A stretch of DNA of 10,067 nucleotides from Myxococcota bacterium (lineage in GTDB: Bacteria; Myxococcota_A; UBA9160; PR03): assembly GCA_030066475.1 (NCBI GenBank), contig JASJBO010000295.1, positions 1 through 10,067 on the forward strand, read 5' to 3'. The position numbers were made by a program, and so were the translations under genes. Shown one piece after another: positions 1,050 to 6,918 of the stretch (positions are counted from its first letter, which is position 1; each line of letters opens with the position of its first letter). The notes below the pieces were generated by a model. That model saw only the letters and a list, made by a program, of their open reading frames with translations, searched no databases and was not told the DNA's origin.

Positions 1050-2231
1050 ATGGTCGAATACGATCCCTTCTCCGAGGCCGTGATCCGGGACCCGCACCCG
1101 ATCTACGCGCGCCTGCGCGAGGAGGCGCCCTGCTACCACCTCGAGAAGTACGACGCGTGGGCGCTGTCGCGCTTCGAGGACATCTGGCAGGCGTCGATGG
1201 ACGCCGAGAGCTACACGGCGACCAAGGGGACCACGTCGAGCCACCTGCTGACCCGCGTGCAGCCGGTGACCCCGATGATCAACCTGATGGACCCGCCCCA
1301 GCACACCCAGCTGCGCTCGAAGATCGCGCGCTTCTTCACGCCGGGCGTGGTGCGCAAGCTCGAGGGCCGGATCCAGGGGTTCGTGGACCAGGCGTTCGCG
1401 GGAATCGCCGAGCGCGACCAGGCGGACCTGTTCAACGAGTTCGCGACCCAGGTGTCGGTGAAGGTCGCGTGCCTCGCGAACGGCTTCCCGCTCGAAGACA
1501 GCGACATGCTCAACCAGCTCGTCTGGCGCTTCTTCGCGCGCGAGGAGGGCGTGGACGGCATCACGCAGGACGGGCTGGCGGCGATGGGCGAGATGACCGC
1601 CTACTTCGCCGAGCTGATCCAGAAGCGGCGCGCCGCCGGCGACACCGAGGGAACGGTGATCGACGTGGCGCTCAACGCCGAGATCGACGGCCGCCGCTTC
1701 AGCGACGAGGAGGCGGGCTCGCACCTCTCGATGTTCCTGATCGGGGGCGCCGAGACCTTCCCGAAGGTGTTCTCGAGCGCGATCTACCGGCTCTGGCAGC
1801 ATCCCGCGCAGCGCGCCCGCTGCGTGGCCGACCCGAGCCTGATCCCCGGCGCCTTCGAGGAGGTGCTGCGCTACGACATGCCCACGCAGTTCCTGATGCG
1901 CGTGCTGCTGAAGGACGTGTCGCTGCACGGTCGGACCATGCGCGCCGGCGACTCGGTGATGTTCCTGTACCCGTCGGCCAACCGCGACCCGCGCGAGTTC
2001 GAGCGCGCCGACGCGTTCGACATCGACCGCCGCCCGCCGCGCATCCTGACCTTCGGCCACGGCATCCACACCTGCATCGGCCAGCACTTCGCGAAGATGG
2101 AGGGCCGGCTCTGCCTCGAGAAGGTGCTGCCCGTGATGCCCGAGTACGAGGTGCAGGAGGACCAGCTGCAGCGCATCCGCACCGAGTTCGTCCAGGGCTG
2201 GGAGACGATGCCGGTGCGCTTCAACCGCTAG
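1050..2231 (+). CDS. Cytochrome P450 monooxygenase (bacterial, soluble)
   Basis: The 393-residue product has the normal size for a soluble bacterial P450, which hydroxylates an organic substrate using O2 and electrons from a ferredoxin and its reductase; neither partner is in the window. Motifs appear in order: MDPPQHTQLR (80-89, C-helix region), GGAET (232-236, I-helix acid-alcohol pair E235/T236), EVLR (271-274, the ExxR motif), FERADAFD (317-324, PERF-like region) and FGHGIHTCIG (335-344), with Cys342 as haem ligand. The ATG at 1050 has AGGGG nine bases upstream; the longer frame to 768 reads across the intergenic region and is not used. The I-helix threonine is followed by F-P rather than the usual T, which may reshape the pocket. 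The TAG stop is the CTAG border of repeat cluster 1. The divergent TetR gene suggests substrate-induced expression. The substrate and CYP family cannot be read from sequence alone. Confidence 0.95.
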   Translation: MVEYDPFSEAVIRDPHPIYARLREEAPCYHLEKYDAWALSRFEDIWQASMDAESYTATKGTTSSHLLTRVQPVTPMINLMDPPQHTQLRSKIARFFTPGVVRKLEGRIQGFVDQAFAGIAERDQADLFNEFATQVSVKVACLANGFPLEDSDMLNQLVWRFFAREEGVDGITQDGLAAMGEMTAYFAELIQKRRAAGDTEGTVIDVALNAEIDGRRFSDEEAGSHLSMFLIGGAETFPKVFSSAIYRLWQHPAQRARCVADPSLIPGAFEEVLRYDMPTQFLMRVLLKDVSLHGRTMRAGDSVMFLYPSANRDPREFERADAFDIDRRPPRILTFGHGIHTCIGQHFAKMEGRLCLEKVLPVMPEYEVQEDQLQRIRTEFVQGWETMPVRFNR

Positions 2232-2411
2232 AAGCCTGCGCGGCAGAAGCCCCAGCAAGCGCCCGGAGGGCGCGCGCAGTGAGGCGAAGCCGAACGAAGT
2301 CCATCGGCTAGCCCGGAGGGCGCGCGCAGTGAGGCGAAGCCGAACGAAGTCCATCGGCTAGCCCGGAGGGCGCGCGCAGTGAGGCGAAGCCGAACGAAGT
2401 CCACCAGCTAG
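2228..2411 (+). repeat. Dispersed modular repeat, cluster 1: one head plus three tandem 50-bp tails
   Basis: A head of about 30 bases (2231-2260, containing CTGCGCGGCAG, a CTGC/GCAG mini-hairpin) is followed by three exact-length 50-base tail units at 2261-2310, 2311-2360 and 2361-2410. Each tail starts GCCCGGAGGGCGCGCGCAGT and ends in GGCTA or AGCTA. Units 1 and 2 are identical; unit 3 differs only near its end (CCACCAGCTA instead of CCATCGGCTA). Each tail joins the next base to form CTAG, and a CTAG (2228-2231, the P450 stop) also stands at the left edge. At the head-tail junction GCGCCC-GGA-GGGCGC can form a tight hairpin. The same family recurs at 3729-3890 and 6783-6918. It contains no plausible gene. 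Confidence 0.93.
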
Positions 2412-2414
2412 GCT
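2409..2414 (+). promoter_or_regulatory. Possible -10 hexamer (TAGGCT) upstream of the sugar dehydrogenase gene
   Basis: TAGGCT fits the TAnnnT shape and includes the last TAG of repeat cluster 1. Transcription starting about seven bases downstream would leave a leader of about 50 bases before the GTG at 2472. A very similar arrangement (TAGTCT followed by CTCGCG-like sequence) follows repeat cluster 3. No -35 box is evident. Confidence 0.3.
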
Positions 2415-2471
2415 CGCGGTCCGTGATCGGGCGCACCCGGCGCCCCGGGGCGGCATCCGAAGCGGGGAGAC

Positions 2472-3725
2472 GTGGACGCGACGAGGACCGCCGCACTGGC
2501 CATCCTGGGGGCCCTGCTGTGCGCAGCGCCGGCGCACCCGCAGGGCCTCTCGACCGTGCGCGTGGTCACGGGCCTCCAGGCGCCGGTGTTCGTGACCGCC
2601 CCGCCGATTCCGGGCGACGACCGCCTGTTCGTGCTCGAGCTGACGGGGCGCGTGCGCGTCGTGCAGGACGGCGTGCTGCTCTCCGACCCGTTCCTCGACC
2701 TGACCCGGGACTGCGAGACGCGGGACTGCGTCGGCACCGCCAGCGAGGGCGGCCTGCTGGGGCTGGCGTTCTCGCCCGACTACGCCAGCGACGGGCGCTT
2801 CTGGGTCTACTGGACCGTCGACGACCCGAGCGCGCCCTCGCCGTGGAACCTCGAGAGCCGCGTCTCGCGCTTCCTGGTGCAGGGCGATCCGGCCACGTCG
2901 AACCAGGCCGACCGCGACAGCGAGCAGGTCTGGTACCAGCTCGACCAGCCCTACGGCAACCACAACGGCGGCACCATCGCGATCCGCGGCGACTTCCTCT
3001 ACCTGGGCCTCGGTGACGGCGGCAGCGGCGGTGATCCCCTCGAAGCGGGCCAGGACGACGCCACCGACCTCGGCAAGCTCCTGCGCTTCGACTGGACCGA
3101 GTCCGAGCCCGCGGCGCCCGAACGCTGGGCCAAGGGCTTCCGCAACCCGTACCGCTTCTCCTTCGACTCGGAGACTGGAGACCTCTACGTCGGCGACGTG
3201 GGGCAGGGCTCGTGGGAGGAGATCGACGTGCAGCCCGCCGCCGCCCCGGCCGGCGAGAACTTCGGCTGGGACGTCGAGGAGGGCAGTGCGTGCTTCGATC
3301 CCGACCGGAACGAGCCCCCGTGCGGCGATCCCACGCTGGTGGGCCCGACCTACGAGTACCCCCACGCCAACCAGCAGTGCGGCGGCTCGGTGACGGGGGG
3401 CGTCGTCTACCGCGGCAGCGCGATCCCGAGCCTGCGGGGCCACTACTTCTTCGCCGACTACTGCCTCGACGAGATCTGGAGCTTCGTCTGGGATCCGGAG
3501 GCCGCGCAGCAGACGGTGGTGTCGCGCACCGCCGACTTCGCGCCCGACGCGGGCTCGATCCGCAGCGTGGCCGGGTTCGGCGAGGACGCGGACGGCGAGC
3601 TCTACGTCGTCGACCTCGAGGGCGGCGAGCTGTTCCGGCTCGTGCCCGAGCCGGGCGGTGCCGCGCTGCGCCTGGCGGCGCTCGCGGGGCTGGCGGCTGC
3701 CGGCGTGCTCCGCCGCCCGCCCGGC
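2472..3725 (+). CDS. Secreted PQQ-dependent sugar (aldose) dehydrogenase-like protein with PEP-CTERM-like tail; stop codon apparently lost
   Basis: The product looks like a soluble-GDH/Asd-type beta-propeller enzyme (GSDH family), which oxidises sugars in the periplasm or outside the cell using PQQ and Ca2+. Residues 1-23 are a signal peptide. Family signatures follow: GGLLGLAFSPDY (93-104), NHNGG (163-167, with H164 at the catalytic-His position), LGLGDGGSGGDP (178-189), GFRNPYRF (222-229, with R224 at the PQQ-binding Arg position), DLYVGDVGQGSWEEID (237-252) and HYFFADYC (324-331). Residues 391-415 read VPEP, a hydrophobic helix, then RR, a PEP-CTERM-type sorting tail for exosortase processing. 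GTG at 2472 has GGGGAG just upstream. The end given is the last codon before the position where a stop is expected: codon 3726-3728 is AAG where other repeat borders have TAG. Literally, the frame stays open to 5186. Actual PQQ use and substrate are not shown. Confidence 0.88.
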
Positions 3726-3728
3726 AAG

Positions 3729-3890
3729 CAGTCTGCGCGGCAGAAGCCCCTTGCAAGCGCCCGGAGGGCGCGCGCAGCGAGGCGAAGCCGAGCGAAATCC
3801 ACCGGGCTAGCAGTCTGCGCGGCAGAAGCCCTTTGCAAGCGCCCGGAGGGCGCGCGCAGCGAGGCGAAGCCGAGCGAAGTCCACCGGCTA
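3729..3890 (+). repeat. Dispersed modular repeat, cluster 2: two full head-plus-tail units in tandem
   Basis: Two copies of the full unit of about 80 bases lie head to tail. Copy A has its head at 3729-3758 and tail at 3759-3809; copy B has its head at 3811-3840 and tail at 3841-3890. Both heads contain CAGTCTGCGCGGCAGAAGCC. The tails belong to a distinct subtype: AGCGAGGCG and CGAGCGAA where clusters 1 and 3 have AGTGAGGCG and CGAACGAA. Tail A is 51 rather than 50 bases because of an extra G in GGG at 3804-3806. The left border reads GGCAAG where copy B is preceded by GGGCTAG. Both departures remove TAG stops from the frame of the upstream gene. Confidence 0.93.
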
Positions 3891-3903
3891 GCGCAGCGGC
3901 GCG

Positions 3904-3909
3904 TATACT
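3904..3909 (+). promoter_or_regulatory. Putative -10 box (TATACT) for the LLM oxidoreductase gene
   Basis: TATACT is a 5/6 match to the consensus -10 in otherwise very GC-rich sequence. It starts 14 bases after the end of repeat cluster 2 and lies 33 bases before the GTG at 3943. The -35 position would fall within the repeat and shows no clear match. Confidence 0.45.
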
Positions 3910-3942
3910 CCGCGCCCGCATTCCGGGGCGCGGGAGGGCAGG

Positions 3943-4845
3943 GTGGCGGAGCGGCTGCGGATCTCGATCACGCTGGCGGGGCTCGGGCGCCTCTACGGCG
4001 GCGACCTCGCCGGGGTCGTCGAGACGGCGCGCATCGCCGACCGGGTCGGCATCGACCAGGTTGCGCTGCCCGACCACCTGGCGATCGGTCCGCACACCGA
4101 GCGCTATCCCTACGGCCGCTTCCCGCTGCCCGACGACGAGCCCTGGCTCGAGCCGCTCACCGCGCTGGCCGCGATGGCCGGCGCCACCTGTCGCATCCGC
4201 CTCGCCACCGGCGTGCTGATCGCGCCGCTGCGTCCCGCGCTGCTGCTCGCGAAGACGGCGGCCACGCTCGACGTGCTCTCGGGCGGGCGCCTCGACCTGG
4301 GCGTGGGCACCGGCTGGCAGCGCGAGGAGTTCGACGCGTCGGGCGTCCCGTTCGAGGGCCGCGCCGCGCGCCTCGACGACACCCTGCGCGCCTGCCGCGC
4401 GCTCTGGCGCGGCGGCGCGGTCTCGTTCGACTCGCCCACGGTGCGCTTCGCGTCGATCCGCTGCGAGCCGCCTCCGCTCCAGTCCGGCGGCCCGCCGCTG
4501 TGGCTCGGCGTGGCGCCCGGTCCGCGCGGCGCCGCGCGCATCGCCGAGCTGGGAGACGGCTGGGCGCCGATCGGCTCCGACCTCGCCGAGCTTGCCGCCG
4601 GCGTCGCGCGCCTGCGCGACGCGTTCCGCGCCGCCGGCCGCGACCCCGCGACGCTCGGGGTGCGCGCCAACGCGCCGCTGGCGCTCGACGAGCGGAGCCG
4701 GCCCGATCTCGACCGGACGCTCGCGGGCCTGCCGGCCCTGCAAGAGGCCGGCGCGACGGTGGCCGCGTTCCCGCTCGGCGCCTTCGCCCGCGAGCGCGCG
4801 GAGATCCCGGGCTTCCTGGAGGCGCTGGCGCGGGCGGCGGTCTGA
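3943..4845 (+). CDS. LLM-class flavin/F420-dependent oxidoreductase (luciferase-like monooxygenase fold)
   Basis: The 300-residue TIM-barrel protein belongs to the bacterial luciferase-like superfamily; members use FMN or F420H2 for oxidation or reduction of varied substrates. Visible family features are the N-terminal strand RISITLAG, AADR-like IADRVGIDQVALPDH (31-45), the segment IRLATGVLIAPLRPALLLAKTAATLD (85-110), and the hallmark SGGRLDLGVGTGWQREEF (113-130). Later segments include PPLWLGV (184-190) and GDGWAPIG (204-211). It resembles the Rv2161c-like group of probable F420-dependent enzymes, but whether this organism makes F420 cannot be seen here. GTG at 3943 is preceded by GGGAGGGCAGG, a strong ribosome site overlapping close to the start. 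The gene has its own candidate -10 box just after repeat cluster 2 and converges on the SnoaL-like gene 9 bases downstream. The substrate is unknown. Confidence 0.92.
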   Translation: MAERLRISITLAGLGRLYGGDLAGVVETARIADRVGIDQVALPDHLAIGPHTERYPYGRFPLPDDEPWLEPLTALAAMAGATCRIRLATGVLIAPLRPALLLAKTAATLDVLSGGRLDLGVGTGWQREEFDASGVPFEGRAARLDDTLRACRALWRGGAVSFDSPTVRFASIRCEPPPLQSGGPPLWLGVAPGPRGAARIAELGDGWAPIGSDLAELAAGVARLRDAFRAAGRDPATLGVRANAPLALDERSRPDLDRTLAGLPALQEAGATVAAFPLGAFARERAEIPGFLEALARAAV

Positions 4846-4848
4846 GCC

Positions 4849-4869
4849 CGCCCGTCAGGGCTTCGGGCG
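4849..4869. terminator. Possible bidirectional hairpin between convergent genes
   Basis: CGCCCG (4849-4854) and CGGGCG (4864-4869) form a 6-bp stem with a 9-base loop at the junction of the convergent LLM and SnoaL-like genes; the stem overlaps the last codons of the SnoaL-like gene. There is no T-run on either side, so intrinsic termination is doubtful. Confidence 0.25.
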
Positions 4870-5370
4870 CCTCACCCACCCGCGCTCGTGCGGTGCGAAG
4901 AACACCACGTCGAGCTTCATCCGGCTGTGCAGCCAGACCCCGTCCTGGCGGACGTACTCGTCGTCCTCGACGCCCGCCATCCACATCGGCCGGTCGTCGG
5001 TGGTGGTGCACGGCGACAGCAGGTCCCAGCGGCCGCGCGCGCGGTCGCCTTCCACCTCGATGCGCGGCTTCACGAAGTAGTGCCAGGAGAAGTGCAGGGT
5101 GGGCCGCGCCAGGCGCTCGCGGATCGCGGCGCGCCCCTCGCACAGGCCGAGGCCGGCGCCGCCGTCCCACACCGCGTCCTCGCTGAACAGCGCGGCGATC
5201 TGGTCGGCCAGCCGGTCGACCTCGGGCTGCGGGCGCGGGCGCCCGCGCTCGTAGCGCGCGTCGACCAGCTCGGCGTAGCGCGCCTTGAGGCGGCGGATCG
5301 CCTCGACGTCCTCGAGCGCGGTCACGCGCGCACCCAGCTCTCGCAGCGCCGCCTCGAGATCGCGGGTCAT
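4855..5370 (-). CDS. SnoaL-like / NTF2-fold protein
   Basis: The 171-residue product fits the SnoaL_4-type group of NTF2-like cone-shaped alpha+beta proteins. Visible features are an N-terminal helix pair (about residues 3-36, ending IRRLKARYAELVD), ADQIAALFSEDAVWDGG (56-71), WHYFVKPRIEVEGDRARGRWDL (96-117), and the closing strands DEYVRQDGVWLHSRMKLDVVFF (137-158). In this fold the pocket can bind or isomerise small hydrophobic, often aromatic or steroidal, molecules. Members are frequent beside P450s and oxygenases, but many have no known activity. ATG at 5370 is supported by GGGAGGT a few bases upstream. The gene is divergent from the lipoprotein gene with only 47 bases between starts, so their promoters must be nearly superimposed. 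The last helix carries H161 and R163; no catalytic residue is assigned. Confidence 0.85.
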   Translation of the reverse strand: MTRDLEAALRELGARVTALEDVEAIRRLKARYAELVDARYERGRPRPQPEVDRLADQIAALFSEDAVWDGGAGLGLCEGRAAIRERLARPTLHFSWHYFVKPRIEVEGDRARGRWDLLSPCTTTDDRPMWMAGVEDDEYVRQDGVWLHSRMKLDVVFFAPHERGWVRRPKP

Positions 5371-5405
5371 CGCACCTCCCGGGGCCGCAGCGTAGCGCGG
5401 CGCGG

Positions 5406-5411
5406 TACCCT
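5406..5411 (+). promoter_or_regulatory. Candidate leaderless promoter -10 (TACCCT) for the lipoprotein gene
   Basis: TACCCT is followed by exactly six bases and then the GTG start at 5418, so transcription would begin at or next to the start codon. No Shine-Dalgarno sequence precedes this GTG. The same spacing is seen before 6928 and before 9609 (minus strand). Confidence 0.4.
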
Positions 5412-5417
5412 CCCGCG

Positions 5418-6023
5418 GTGCGATCCACCGTCCGCCGCGTCGCGATCTGCTCGCTGGCTGCCGCCGCTTCGCTCGTCGCGCCCGCCTGCTCCCAGCGCTA
5501 TCGCCCCGAGCCCGCCCCGCTCAACGCCGAGACGGCGGCGGCGGCCAGCAGCGTGCTCGAGGCCGCTGCCGATCGGATCAGCCTGGTCGAGGGCGGACTG
5601 CTGCTGCCCGAGGCGTTCCACTGGGAGGAGCAGCGGCAGATCGAGCCGCGCAGCGAGTGGGATCCGGCCACGGGCCGCTTCGAGATGGTCTGGCGCGAGG
5701 AGGTGCGCCGCGTGCTGGCGGGTCCCGAGTCGGTCTATCTCGCCTACGCCGACGTGCGCGCGGTCTCGATGCGCACCTGGGCGCTGTGGGCGGGTGTCGA
5801 GTTCGAGCTGGTCGAGCCGGAGGGCGGCGCCGCGGACCCGGCGGAGACGCCCCCGCGCCACAACCCGCTGCTGGTCGAGCTGGAGGACGAGGCCAGCGCC
5901 CGCGCGCTGGCCGAGGCGCTCGACCTGCTGGTGCGCTCGGTGCGGCGTCAATGGCAGGCGGATGGGCAGGAGGACGACCCCGATGCGGAACGGGCGCCTC
6001 CCCCGGCCGCCGGCCCCGAGTAG
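5418..6023 (+). CDS. Putative lipoprotein of unknown function
   Basis: The 201-residue product begins with a basic n-region (MRSTVRR), a hydrophobic stretch, and a lipobox-like VAPAC with Cys24 as the predicted lipidation site; the -3 residue is Ala rather than the preferred Leu, so the lipobox is acceptable but not ideal. The mature part has two short helical segments, a central region (about 64-125) with LPEAFHWEEQRQIEP and FEMVWREEVRRVL, and a D/E-rich segment LVELEDEASARALAEALDLLVRSV (131-154) that looks helical and amphipathic. The C-terminus is acidic and proline-rich. I recognise no family. It sits 24 bases upstream of a rhomboid protease gene on the same strand, so the two are probably co-transcribed. 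The start is the only one that gives a full signal peptide and carries a TAnnnT hexamer at leaderless spacing. Confidence 0.8.
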   Translation: MRSTVRRVAICSLAAAASLVAPACSQRYRPEPAPLNAETAAAASSVLEAAADRISLVEGGLLLPEAFHWEEQRQIEPRSEWDPATGRFEMVWREEVRRVLAGPESVYLAYADVRAVSMRTWALWAGVEFELVEPEGGAADPAETPPRHNPLLVELEDEASARALAEALDLLVRSVRRQWQADGQEDDPDAERAPPPAAGPE

Positions 6024-6047
6024 GGCCCGGGTGATCGGGTCGCGCCC

Positions 6048-6755
6048 ATGTTTCCGCTGCACGACGAGAACCCGACCTGCTCGTTCCCGTTCGTGACGCT
6101 GGCGATCGTCGCGGCGAACGCACTCGCCTGGGTCTTCGTCCAGGGCCTCGGCAGCGAGCCGAGGATCACCGGCTCGATCTGCACGTTCGGCCTGATCCCG
6201 GCCGAGCTGCTCGGCCGCCTGCCCGACGGTGCGCCGGTCCGACTCGGCGACGCGCAGTGCGTCGCACACCCCGCCGGCAGCTCGCTCGCGCTGCTGACCT
6301 CGATGTTCATGCACGGCGGCTGGCTCCACATCGTCGGCAACCTCTGGTTCCTCTGGGTGTTCGGAGACAACGTCGAGGACGAGCTGGGCCACGGCCGCTA
6401 TGCGCTGTTCTATCCGGCCTGCGGGCTCGTCGCCGCGCTCGCCGAGGTCGCGGCGAACCCCGCGAGCGAGGTCCCGATGGTCGGTGCCTCGGGCGCGATC
6501 GGCGGCGTGATGGGCGCCTACGCCGTGCTGCACCCGCGGGCGCGCGTCCACACGCTGTTCGTCCTCGTCGTCTTCGTCCGGATCATCCCCGTGCCCGCGA
6601 TCGTGCTGCTGGGCTACTGGTTCGCGCTCCAGCTGGTCGGTGGCGGAGCGGCGCTCGGCTCGAGCGGTGGCGGTGTTGCGTTCTGGGCCCACGCGGGCGG
6701 CTTCCTGGCCGGCGCCGCGTGTGCGCTCCCGCTGCGCGGCCGCAGGCCCAGGTGA
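6048..6755 (+). CDS. Rhomboid-family intramembrane serine protease
   Basis: The 235-residue polytopic membrane protein has all rhomboid hallmarks. TM1 lies at about 14-33 and is followed by a roughly 45-residue periplasmic loop. LTSMFMHGGWLHIVGNLWFLWVFGDNVED (83-111) contains H94 and N98 at the oxyanion-hole positions of GlpG. GASGAIGG (146-153) carries the nucleophile S148, and AHAGGF (214-219) carries the catalytic H215. Six or so hydrophobic segments are visible. Rhomboids cleave membrane-anchored substrates within or near the bilayer. Loop cysteines C45, C71 and C125 could form a disulfide, which is inference. ATG at 6048 has no strong ribosome site; it follows the lipoprotein stop by 24 bases, consistent with translational coupling or a shared transcript. 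The gene ends 27 bases before repeat cluster 3. The substrate is unknown, though the adjacent lipoprotein is an obvious candidate partner. Confidence 0.95.
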   Translation: MFPLHDENPTCSFPFVTLAIVAANALAWVFVQGLGSEPRITGSICTFGLIPAELLGRLPDGAPVRLGDAQCVAHPAGSSLALLTSMFMHGGWLHIVGNLWFLWVFGDNVEDELGHGRYALFYPACGLVAALAEVAANPASEVPMVGASGAIGGVMGAYAVLHPRARVHTLFVLVVFVRIIPVPAIVLLGYWFALQLVGGGAALGSSGGGVAFWAHAGGFLAGAACALPLRGRRPR

Positions 6756-6782
6756 AGAGCGGCGCTGGAGTCCGCGCGTCGG

Positions 6783-6918
6783 CTAGGGAGTCCGTGCGGC
6801 AGAAGCCCCCCGCAAGCGCCCGGAGGGCGCGCGCAGTGAGGCGAAGCCGAACGAAGTCCATCAGCTAGCCCGGAGGGCGCGCGCAGTGAGGCGAAGCCGA
6901 ACGAAGTCCATCAGCTAG
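6783..6918 (+). repeat. Dispersed modular repeat, cluster 3: one head plus two tandem 50-bp tails
   Basis: After a CTAG at 6783-6786, a head (6788-6817, with GTGCGGCAGAAGCC) leads into two identical 50-base tails at 6818-6867 and 6868-6917. They are of the same subtype as cluster 1 (AGTGAGGCG, CGAACGAA) and end in CAGCTA. Each tail end forms CTAG with the next base. The last CTAG overlaps the candidate -10 hexamer of the following gene. The head is the most diverged of the three and carries an extra G after CTAG. Confidence 0.92.

Follow-up and report, generated by a model that had tools for sequence, protein, structure and literature searches.

The 10,067-bp contig JASJBO010000295.1 of a Myxococcota bacterium (assembly GCA_030066475.1, forward strand; hereafter the window) carries three clusters of a short, gene-less repeat among a cytochrome P450 gene, a glucose/sorbosone dehydrogenase-like gene, a luciferase-like monooxygenase gene and a rhomboid gene (Table 1). 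A first-pass annotation, made from the letters alone, had described these clusters as a dispersed repeat with head and tail units and had suggested a non-autonomous element or a hairpin family moved by an enzyme encoded elsewhere in the host. The observation of a dispersed repeat is confirmed here and its interpretation is partly supported: what was then called the tail is one case of a wider family, whose conserved core contains two neighbouring hairpins.

Table 1. Repeat clusters, their parts and the neighbouring genes, with positions counted from the first base of the window.
Feature	Position	Strand	Remarks
Cytochrome P450 gene (PF00067)	1050..2231	+	5' neighbour of cluster 1
CTAG, 5' border of cluster 1	2228..2231	+	its TAG is the P450 stop codon
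Cluster 1, whole	2232-2411	+	one 80-bp full unit and two 50-bp tails
Cluster 1, full unit (head and core)	2232..2311	+	runs from after the P450-stop CTAG to the end of the next CTAG
Cluster 1, family core	2255..2299	+	GCAA 2255-2258, P1 2259-2273, GCGCAG and P2 hairpin to 2299; 71.3 bits, E 7.5e-23 against model R1 (the sequence is itself among R1's 18 building sequences)
Cluster 1, second tail	2312..2361	+	50 bp; P1 shortened; GCTA in place of GCAA; weaker model match at 2307-2349
Cluster 1, third tail	2362..2411	+	50 bp; P1 shortened likewise; model match 2357-2399
Cluster 1, 26-base core copies	2274-2299, 2324-2349, 2374-2399	+
Glucose/sorbosone dehydrogenase-like gene (PF07995)	2472..3735	+	between clusters 1 and 2
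Cluster 2, whole	3729-3891	+	two full units
Cluster 2, unit 1	3729..3810	+	82 bp; core 3753-3797; model match
Cluster 2, unit 2	3811..3891	+	81 bp; core 3835-3879; model match
Cluster 2, 26-base core copies	3772-3797, 3854-3879	+
Luciferase-like monooxygenase gene (PF00296)	3943..4845	+	3' neighbour of cluster 2
Rhomboid gene (PF01694)	6048..6755	+	5' neighbour of cluster 3
Cluster 3, whole	6787-6918	+	one full unit and one 50-bp tail
Cluster 3, full unit	6787..6868	+	82 bp; core 6812-6856; model match
Cluster 3, second tail	6869..6918	+	50 bp; P1 shortened; model match 6864-6906
Cluster 3, 26-base core copies	6831-6856, 6881-6906	+

The three same-orientation clusters that had been reported are borne out by seven copies of a 26-base core, all on the plus strand; a second pattern recovered the same seven copies, and 200 shuffles of the window yielded none. 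Their layout is also as described, with the tail multiplied in clusters 1 and 3 (counts of three and two, which include the full unit's own tail) and a doubled head-plus-tail unit in cluster 2. The two subtypes that had been distinguished, clusters 1 and 3 vs cluster 2, differ mainly in a single pair within the second hairpin, which is T-A in the former and C-G in the latter, a compensatory change. The conserved core straddles the border drawn between head and tail, and their separate duplication was observed only in the window. Of the two small hairpins proposed, GCGCCC-GGA-GGGCGC was retained and corresponds to the hairpin named P1 below. The head hairpin CTGC-GCG-GCAG was dropped as a part of the family, being altered to CCGT-GCG-GCAG in cluster 3; the window head string TGCGCGGCAGAAGCCC had no exact match among 306 fetched loci and looks local, outside the family core.

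Aligned copies follow a common plan, namely 5'-GCAA, the hairpin P1, and then GCGCAG-YGA-GSC-GNA-GSC-GAR-CGNAG, in which the hairpin P2 has a GNA loop and a GA/GA internal loop and P1 is nearly free in sequence. Conservation is strong up to CGNAG and weak for about 8 bases thereafter. Of 251 unique elements, 177 have a P1 with 4-16 contiguous pairs, in 138 distinct sequences; the remaining 74 have no stem of that kind adjoining a G[CT]AA, and some copies in genomes G037 and G041 have a long P1 loop plus, by eye, an outer stem. The foot of P1 is GCAA in 38 of the 39 rows of alignment A4, which were picked as model matches, and GTAA in one, and the dinucleotide most often found before the foot tetranucleotide is CC (74/172). 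In a predicted fold, P1 stands on a further base of two pairs, GC with GC across an AA/GC internal loop, so that each hairpin consists of a short base, then a two-by-two internal loop, then an upper stem.

Both hairpins covary strongly. In a model-fitted alignment of the best 150 of 188 matches (135 distinct rows), 98.9% of the cells were paired (76.6% in shuffles), the covariation score was 0.474 (0.134), and 8 of 11 pairs (6.2) and 287 cells (103.8) had changed on both sides. An ungapped alignment of 37 distinct equal-length rows, not fitted to the model, gave 98.5% paired cells (78.6%), a score of 0.450 (0.128) and 7 of 11 pairs changed on both sides (5.2). A search of the window against Rfam 15 at gathering scores produced no match, and a search of the window together with 11 loci at E-values up to 1 produced a single one, at E 0.59 in locus L004.

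When one genome per species was scanned with the pattern, the single match was the draft of 'Deltaproteobacteria bacterium isolate Ww563' (G001), where a shortened core pattern, with three mismatches at most, occurred 62 times forward and 65 times in reverse, against 0 and 2 occurrences of the reversed pattern. The core with up to two mismatches was present in 28 of 60 genomes around G001, G001 included, and a slightly wider pattern matched in 10 of 30 further genomes, all reversed-pattern controls being zero. Copies are particularly numerous in G001 (118 matches), G033 (74) and G082 (99, from a slightly wider pattern than the other two counts), again with controls of 0. Of 282 genomes sampled from the phylum, 23 contain the exact 26-base core and none the reversed pattern; the 23 include G122, G134, G304 and G326, which are far less like the window by DNA. 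The closest by DNA among 377 genomes, G072 (87% identity in an amidohydrolase gene, 83% in the P450 gene), is matched by the model 59 times at E no higher than 1e-5. Taken with the mostly extragenic placement described below, these copies in relatives support the earlier view of a dispersed, gene-less, extragenic hairpin family in the style of repetitive extragenic palindromic (REP) sequences and bacterial interspersed mosaic elements.

A model scan of the 377 genomes, in which 16 candidates per genome were scored, matched 169 at E up to 0.001; single weak hits were treated as noise and the counts were not used. One genome, G224, gave 53 model matches of near-equal score, which were not counted as members because the best core in the four loci read has 6-7 mismatches; they are perhaps another dispersed hairpin repeat. 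Among plasmid records, 1,432 matched at E up to 10 and 15 did so over 80% of the query; the 15 matches listed are weak, with E-values of 0.06 to 9, and eight of them lie inside annotated genes. Phage records gave 34 matches, none of which covered 80% of the query. Two viral contigs carry the core and are alike over the stretches read; in their copies (L010 300-420, L011 4660-4790) P1 itself is GA/GA-flanked and the copy lies shortly upstream of an open frame.

Several variant arrangements were encountered among the fetched loci. Many copies in G001 (L082-L101) have a conserved 3' extension of about 100 nt, with AAGGNTGCCTCCG, GAATCATCGAGCCCG and GAACACCGC in this order, variable stretches between these strings, and tandem spacing of 110-158 nt in several loci. 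A further hairpin, starting with GCGGGTGGC and ending with GCCGGGACCCGC or similar, follows several copies in L131, L161 and loci of G080, G089 and G090. Related short GNA hairpins that are GA-flanked but lack the GCGCAG part occur in runs in L209, L217 and L210 (G167, G125) and perhaps belong to a looser superfamily.

The divergence of the copies differs between the parts of the element. Across 22 long-form G001 copies, identity averages 0.94 over the core, 0.77 over the 20 bases that follow it and 0.50 over inner positions of P1. A search of the whole record of G018 returned 29 exact, 10 one-mismatch, 4 two-mismatch and 25 three-mismatch copies, compared with 26 in all for the reversed pattern (in this N-joined scaffold, 20 sampled stretches gave no clear GC skew). 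In 43 tandem pairs, 23 of which have two readable P1 sequences, P1 was identical in 16, differed in the loop only in 6 and showed one paired change in 1. Neighbouring tandem copies thus mostly share their P1, and P1 is therefore inherited, changing slowly with compensation; rapid swapping of P1 between copies is not supported by the same pairs. Overall, the pattern looks like either upkeep of each copy or repeated spread of intact copies.

The placement of 124 clusters from seven genomes was compared with genes called by a composition-based script of our own, which misses the window's dehydrogenase gene, a stopless frame. Only 13 clusters lay within called genes, in DNA that is 87-95% coding, 6 had one called neighbour, and 105 lay between two called genes. 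Of these, 43 occupied convergent gaps, for which intergenic length predicts 20.4 and the number of gene pairs 18.2; divergent gaps held 11 (33.4 and 17.0) and tandem gaps 51 (51.2 and 69.8). With expectations computed in these two ways, the convergent excess is firm and the divergent deficit less so. The orientation of copies relative to genes, a check that the first-pass annotation had proposed, revealed no clear strand bias in tandem contexts (30 sense, 21 antisense; p 0.26), convergent gaps being favoured. Many elements lie a few bases from a stop codon. Neighbours within 200 bp of each other in the fetched loci are direct repeats in 46 of 49 pairs. Pairs 200-499 bp apart were head-to-head in 5 of 5. 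In L158 (about 3560-3690, G037), tandem elements are interleaved with repeats encoding MDREYKGGIYV, and comparison with L232 (G018) suggests that the upstream gene's 3' end has been duplicated here along with the element.

Junctions with and without the element were found in different species. A comparison of the flanks of 155 elements gave 29 matches, 12 of which were aligned, and in 10 of the 12 the other species lacks the element. The ten element-free junctions stem from eight occupied sites (L003, L016, L084, L158, L178, L179, L203, L226), and three of them are poorly aligned on one side (L016/L226, L016/L197, L084/L114); in L016/L031 the element is present in both with a different P1, and the alignment of L083/L117 is unclear. 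In the clearest case, G040 has an element between a small gene and a luciferase gene, with the upstream reading frame entering the element and stopping at a TGA inside it, and the same junction in G047 and G029 has no element. Likewise, a G072 element occupies an 82-base stop-to-start gap that measures 17 in G032. Such differences in occupancy support insertion, as far as alignments that do not tell gain from loss can do so.

The borders of the window units are marked by the tetranucleotide CTAG. It occurs nine times in the window, at start positions 2228, 2308, 2358, 2408, 3807, 3888, 6783, 6865 and 6915, and all nine occurrences are at unit junctions; as shuffles predict 14.8, CTAG is otherwise avoided in this DNA. 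Nine of the ten unit borders thus have CTAG and the tenth, on the 5' side of cluster 2, has CAAG. Most window units are flanked by CTAG on both sides, which might mark a target-site duplication.

The reading that we favour, and hold to be somewhat probable, is that of a family of short, gene-less extragenic DNA elements with two neighbouring hairpins, presumably inserted by a trans-acting enzyme and with tails later duplicated. It builds on the core, its covariation, the copy numbers in relatives, the extragenic placement, the differing occupancy of junctions and the CTAG at window borders. The core of about 45 nt, as one displaced strand, would fold into P1, mostly with a GNA or GNNA loop on a nearly free sequence framed by GCAA and GCGC, and into P2, with its conserved GA/GA internal loop and GNA loop. 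The putative enzyme would recognise this folded single strand and insert the element, in the subfamily of the window presumably at CTAG, including the C-TAG stop of the P450 gene, and the 50-bp tails would have arisen by later duplication at a CTAG. A bolder version is tentative and in our judgement rather doubtful. In it, the family would be a new class of DNA that moves or once moved and whose folded single strand is recognised by its shape, a fixed GNA hairpin with tandem G.A pairs next to one that may have any sequence provided that it pairs; the enzyme would come from outside the families linked with such repeats so far, and the element, being kept intact in each copy, would also be of use to the host.

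Loop types and base pairing fit folding as single-stranded DNA better than folding as RNA. The sequence pyGApu is a tandem G.A motif in DNA, and mini-hairpins with GNA loops, of the d(GCGAAGC) type, are familiar from oligonucleotides and aptamers. Of 251 elements, 237 have a GNA loop in P2; among 106 P1 triloops, 89 are GNA and 100 have a C-G closing pair, and 23 of 31 P1 tetraloops are GNNA. P1 pairs by Watson-Crick rules with little tolerance of G.T. In 152 elements whose P1 measures 11-24 nt with no more than two positions unpaired, 985 pairs comprise 946 Watson-Crick, 8 G.T and 31 other pairs, the reverse of 37 tRNAs in the same DNA (843 stem pairs: 799 Watson-Crick, 42 G.U, 2 mismatches), a comparison blunted by the fact that elements and tRNAs were both selected for pairing; P1 in the model alignment has 6 G.U and 13 unpaired cells. 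According to a passage of PMC4686876, GNA and GNNA loops give DNA mini-hairpins extraordinary stability, with a melting temperature of 78 °C for GCGAAGC.

Further observations weigh against an inserted DNA element. As 17 of the 23 GNNA tetraloops are also GNRA, they are no argument against RNA, and the outer P2 pair is T.G in 16 of 251 elements. With ViennaRNA DNA energies, two window copies showed no excess folding (z -0.07 and -0.70), and RNA energies of the same two copies were somewhat better (z -1.56 and -1.93); two elements of relatives fold beyond shuffles as DNA (z -1.83 and -3.44). CTAG is enriched near elements beyond the window, yet is not general, and was rejected as a family-wide border: of 237 elements, 31 have a CTAG no further off than about 60 nt on their 3' side (4.3 would be expected), and for the 5' side the count is 25 of 170 (3.1), an enrichment due in part to elements adjoining stop codons. 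Decayed copies are few in G018, which is odd for a purely selfish repeat. Lastly, no mobiliser, excision product or proved target duplication was found, the species compared being too distant.

Some of these points would suit a structured RNA element of 3' untranslated regions, one that protects mRNA ends, acts in termination or binds a protein and that duplication has spread, with selection on each copy. We regard this as unlikely, yet as an explanation to be taken seriously: the core is nearly constant as P1 diverges with compensation, decayed copies are scarce, copies lie near the 3' ends of genes, and the RNA fold is well defined, the best structure at 3835-3879 taking 0.92 of the ensemble as RNA and 0.20 as DNA. 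However, an mRNA element should lean to the sense strand, which the tandem contexts do not clearly do, G.T pairs are rarer in P1 than mismatches, and GNA triloops predominate over GNRA tetraloops. Nor does the core match an Rfam family, and the base profile of 238 elements over positions 27-45, after CGNAG, has T at 0.55 in the first position and at 0.03-0.29 in the others, with no T run of the kind that an intrinsic terminator would have. The nearly universal retention of core and pairing in the copies found, and their convergent intergenic placement, might also point to host-serving DNA sites for replication, segregation or topology that have no dedicated mobilising enzyme; that explanation is very improbable, given the patchy distribution (32 of the 60 genomes around G001 lack any match even when two mismatches are allowed, and 23 of 282 in the phylum carry the exact core) and the differing occupancy of matching junctions.

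Bacterial extragenic hairpin repeats are commonly tied to REP-associated tyrosine transposases (RAYTs), and a classical REP family, or one of REP doublets (REPINs), whose RAYT, a Y1 HUH enzyme, has been lost or is missing from the drafts is a rival explanation. Like such families, the elements are mostly extragenic, numerous, gene-less and clustered, form short imperfect hairpins with an internal loop and include some head-to-head neighbours, and their size fits the 21-65 nt given for REPs in a passage of PMC6006769. Their foot is GCAA, however, and not the GTAG/GTGG that forms part of the REP definition as worded there (PMC6006769). They comprise two side-by-side hairpins, mostly with GNA loops, one of which is nearly free and has a stem that varies from copy to copy within one genome, and close neighbours, like the window clusters, are mostly direct repeats rather than the inverted doublets of the REPIN notion outlined in PMC3116915. 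The enzymes were sought in 89 genomes, 18 of which are copy-rich, with nine or more core matches by two slightly different patterns; all are drafts, so that single absences are weak evidence and absence from several at once is less weak. The Y1_Tnp domain (PF01797), which covers IS200 and RAYT enzymes, occurs in 34 of 89, namely 10 of 18 copy-rich genomes vs 24 of 71 others (odds 2.4, Fisher p 0.11). It was not found in 8 of the 18 copy-rich drafts, including the richest, G001 and G082, which leaves the RAYT/TnpA_REP mobiliser named as an example in the first-pass annotation unsupported; a classical REP family is improbable. Y2_Tnp (PF04986, IS91 type) has the same distribution (10/18 vs 24/71) and was not found in the drafts of G033, G072 and G082; the IS110 domain Transposase_20 (PF02371), present in 5 of 18 vs 26 of 71, was not found in those of G001, G033, G072 and G082. 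None of the enzymes of RAYT-type Y1, Y2 or IS110 kind thus seems to be an obligate mobiliser of the family, each being among those not found in several copy-rich drafts. Integron attC-like recombination sites, with the gene between clusters 1 and 2 as a cassette, are harder still to credit. Like attC, the elements fold as one strand, combine a variable hairpin with a conserved one and often lie behind genes, and the dehydrogenase gene bracketed by clusters 1 and 2 is an extra gene at that junction relative to G050, where a gap of about 40 bp, without this gene, separates the P450 gene from the luciferase gene. The R boxes of attC are RYYYAAC/GTTRRRY; no such box is present in the conserved core in alignment A4, and the elements are dispersed. 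Integron integrase was rejected as the mobiliser, being above the cut-off in 8 of 18 copy-rich genomes vs 29 of 71 others, with no visible link to the elements and no hit over the cut-off in G001, G072 and G082. The overall count over the curated cut-off, 37 of the 89 genomes around G001, seems high.

The family apparently is REP-like but distinct, and undescribed; in its way of working it resembles a REP, as a short folded repeat outside genes that is probably mobilised in trans. The core strings were not found in open-access papers, most of the subscription literature being outside that search. It also resembles the subterminal hairpins of IS200/IS605 elements in being hairpin-marked with a border tetranucleotide (CTAG, in the window), but the tetranucleotide is not family-wide and Y1 was not found in several copy-rich drafts. 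The CTAG borders recall miniature inverted-repeat transposable elements with a 4-bp target duplication; unlike these, the units have no visible terminal inverted repeats, since no inverted repeat of at least 16 nt bounds them among 25 listed of 46 pairs, and none was seen by eye. The P2 loops and most P1 triloops obey the GNA rule of d(GCGAAGC)-type mini-hairpins, and no natural dispersed GNA-hairpin family was among the best-ranked literature matches. A family with about a hundred matches in drafts where no Y1 domain was found has a structure rule (GNA loops, a GA/GA internal loop, a free but paired stem) that is precise enough to build a search model on and to design a binding test. Should the DNA reading be true, it would represent a natural use of a mini-hairpin from oligonucleotide chemistry and would point to an enzyme or binding protein that can be sought.

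Minor features of the neighbouring genes complete the description of the window. No in-frame stop closes the dehydrogenase-like gene ahead of cluster 2 or inside it, its frame remaining open to 5186; the TAG that closes unit 1 of cluster 2 is out of frame with it, and its stopless end (2472-3891 region) is PEP-CTERM-like. A small neighbouring gene falls barely under the SpoIIAA-like cut-off (24.9 vs 25 bits).

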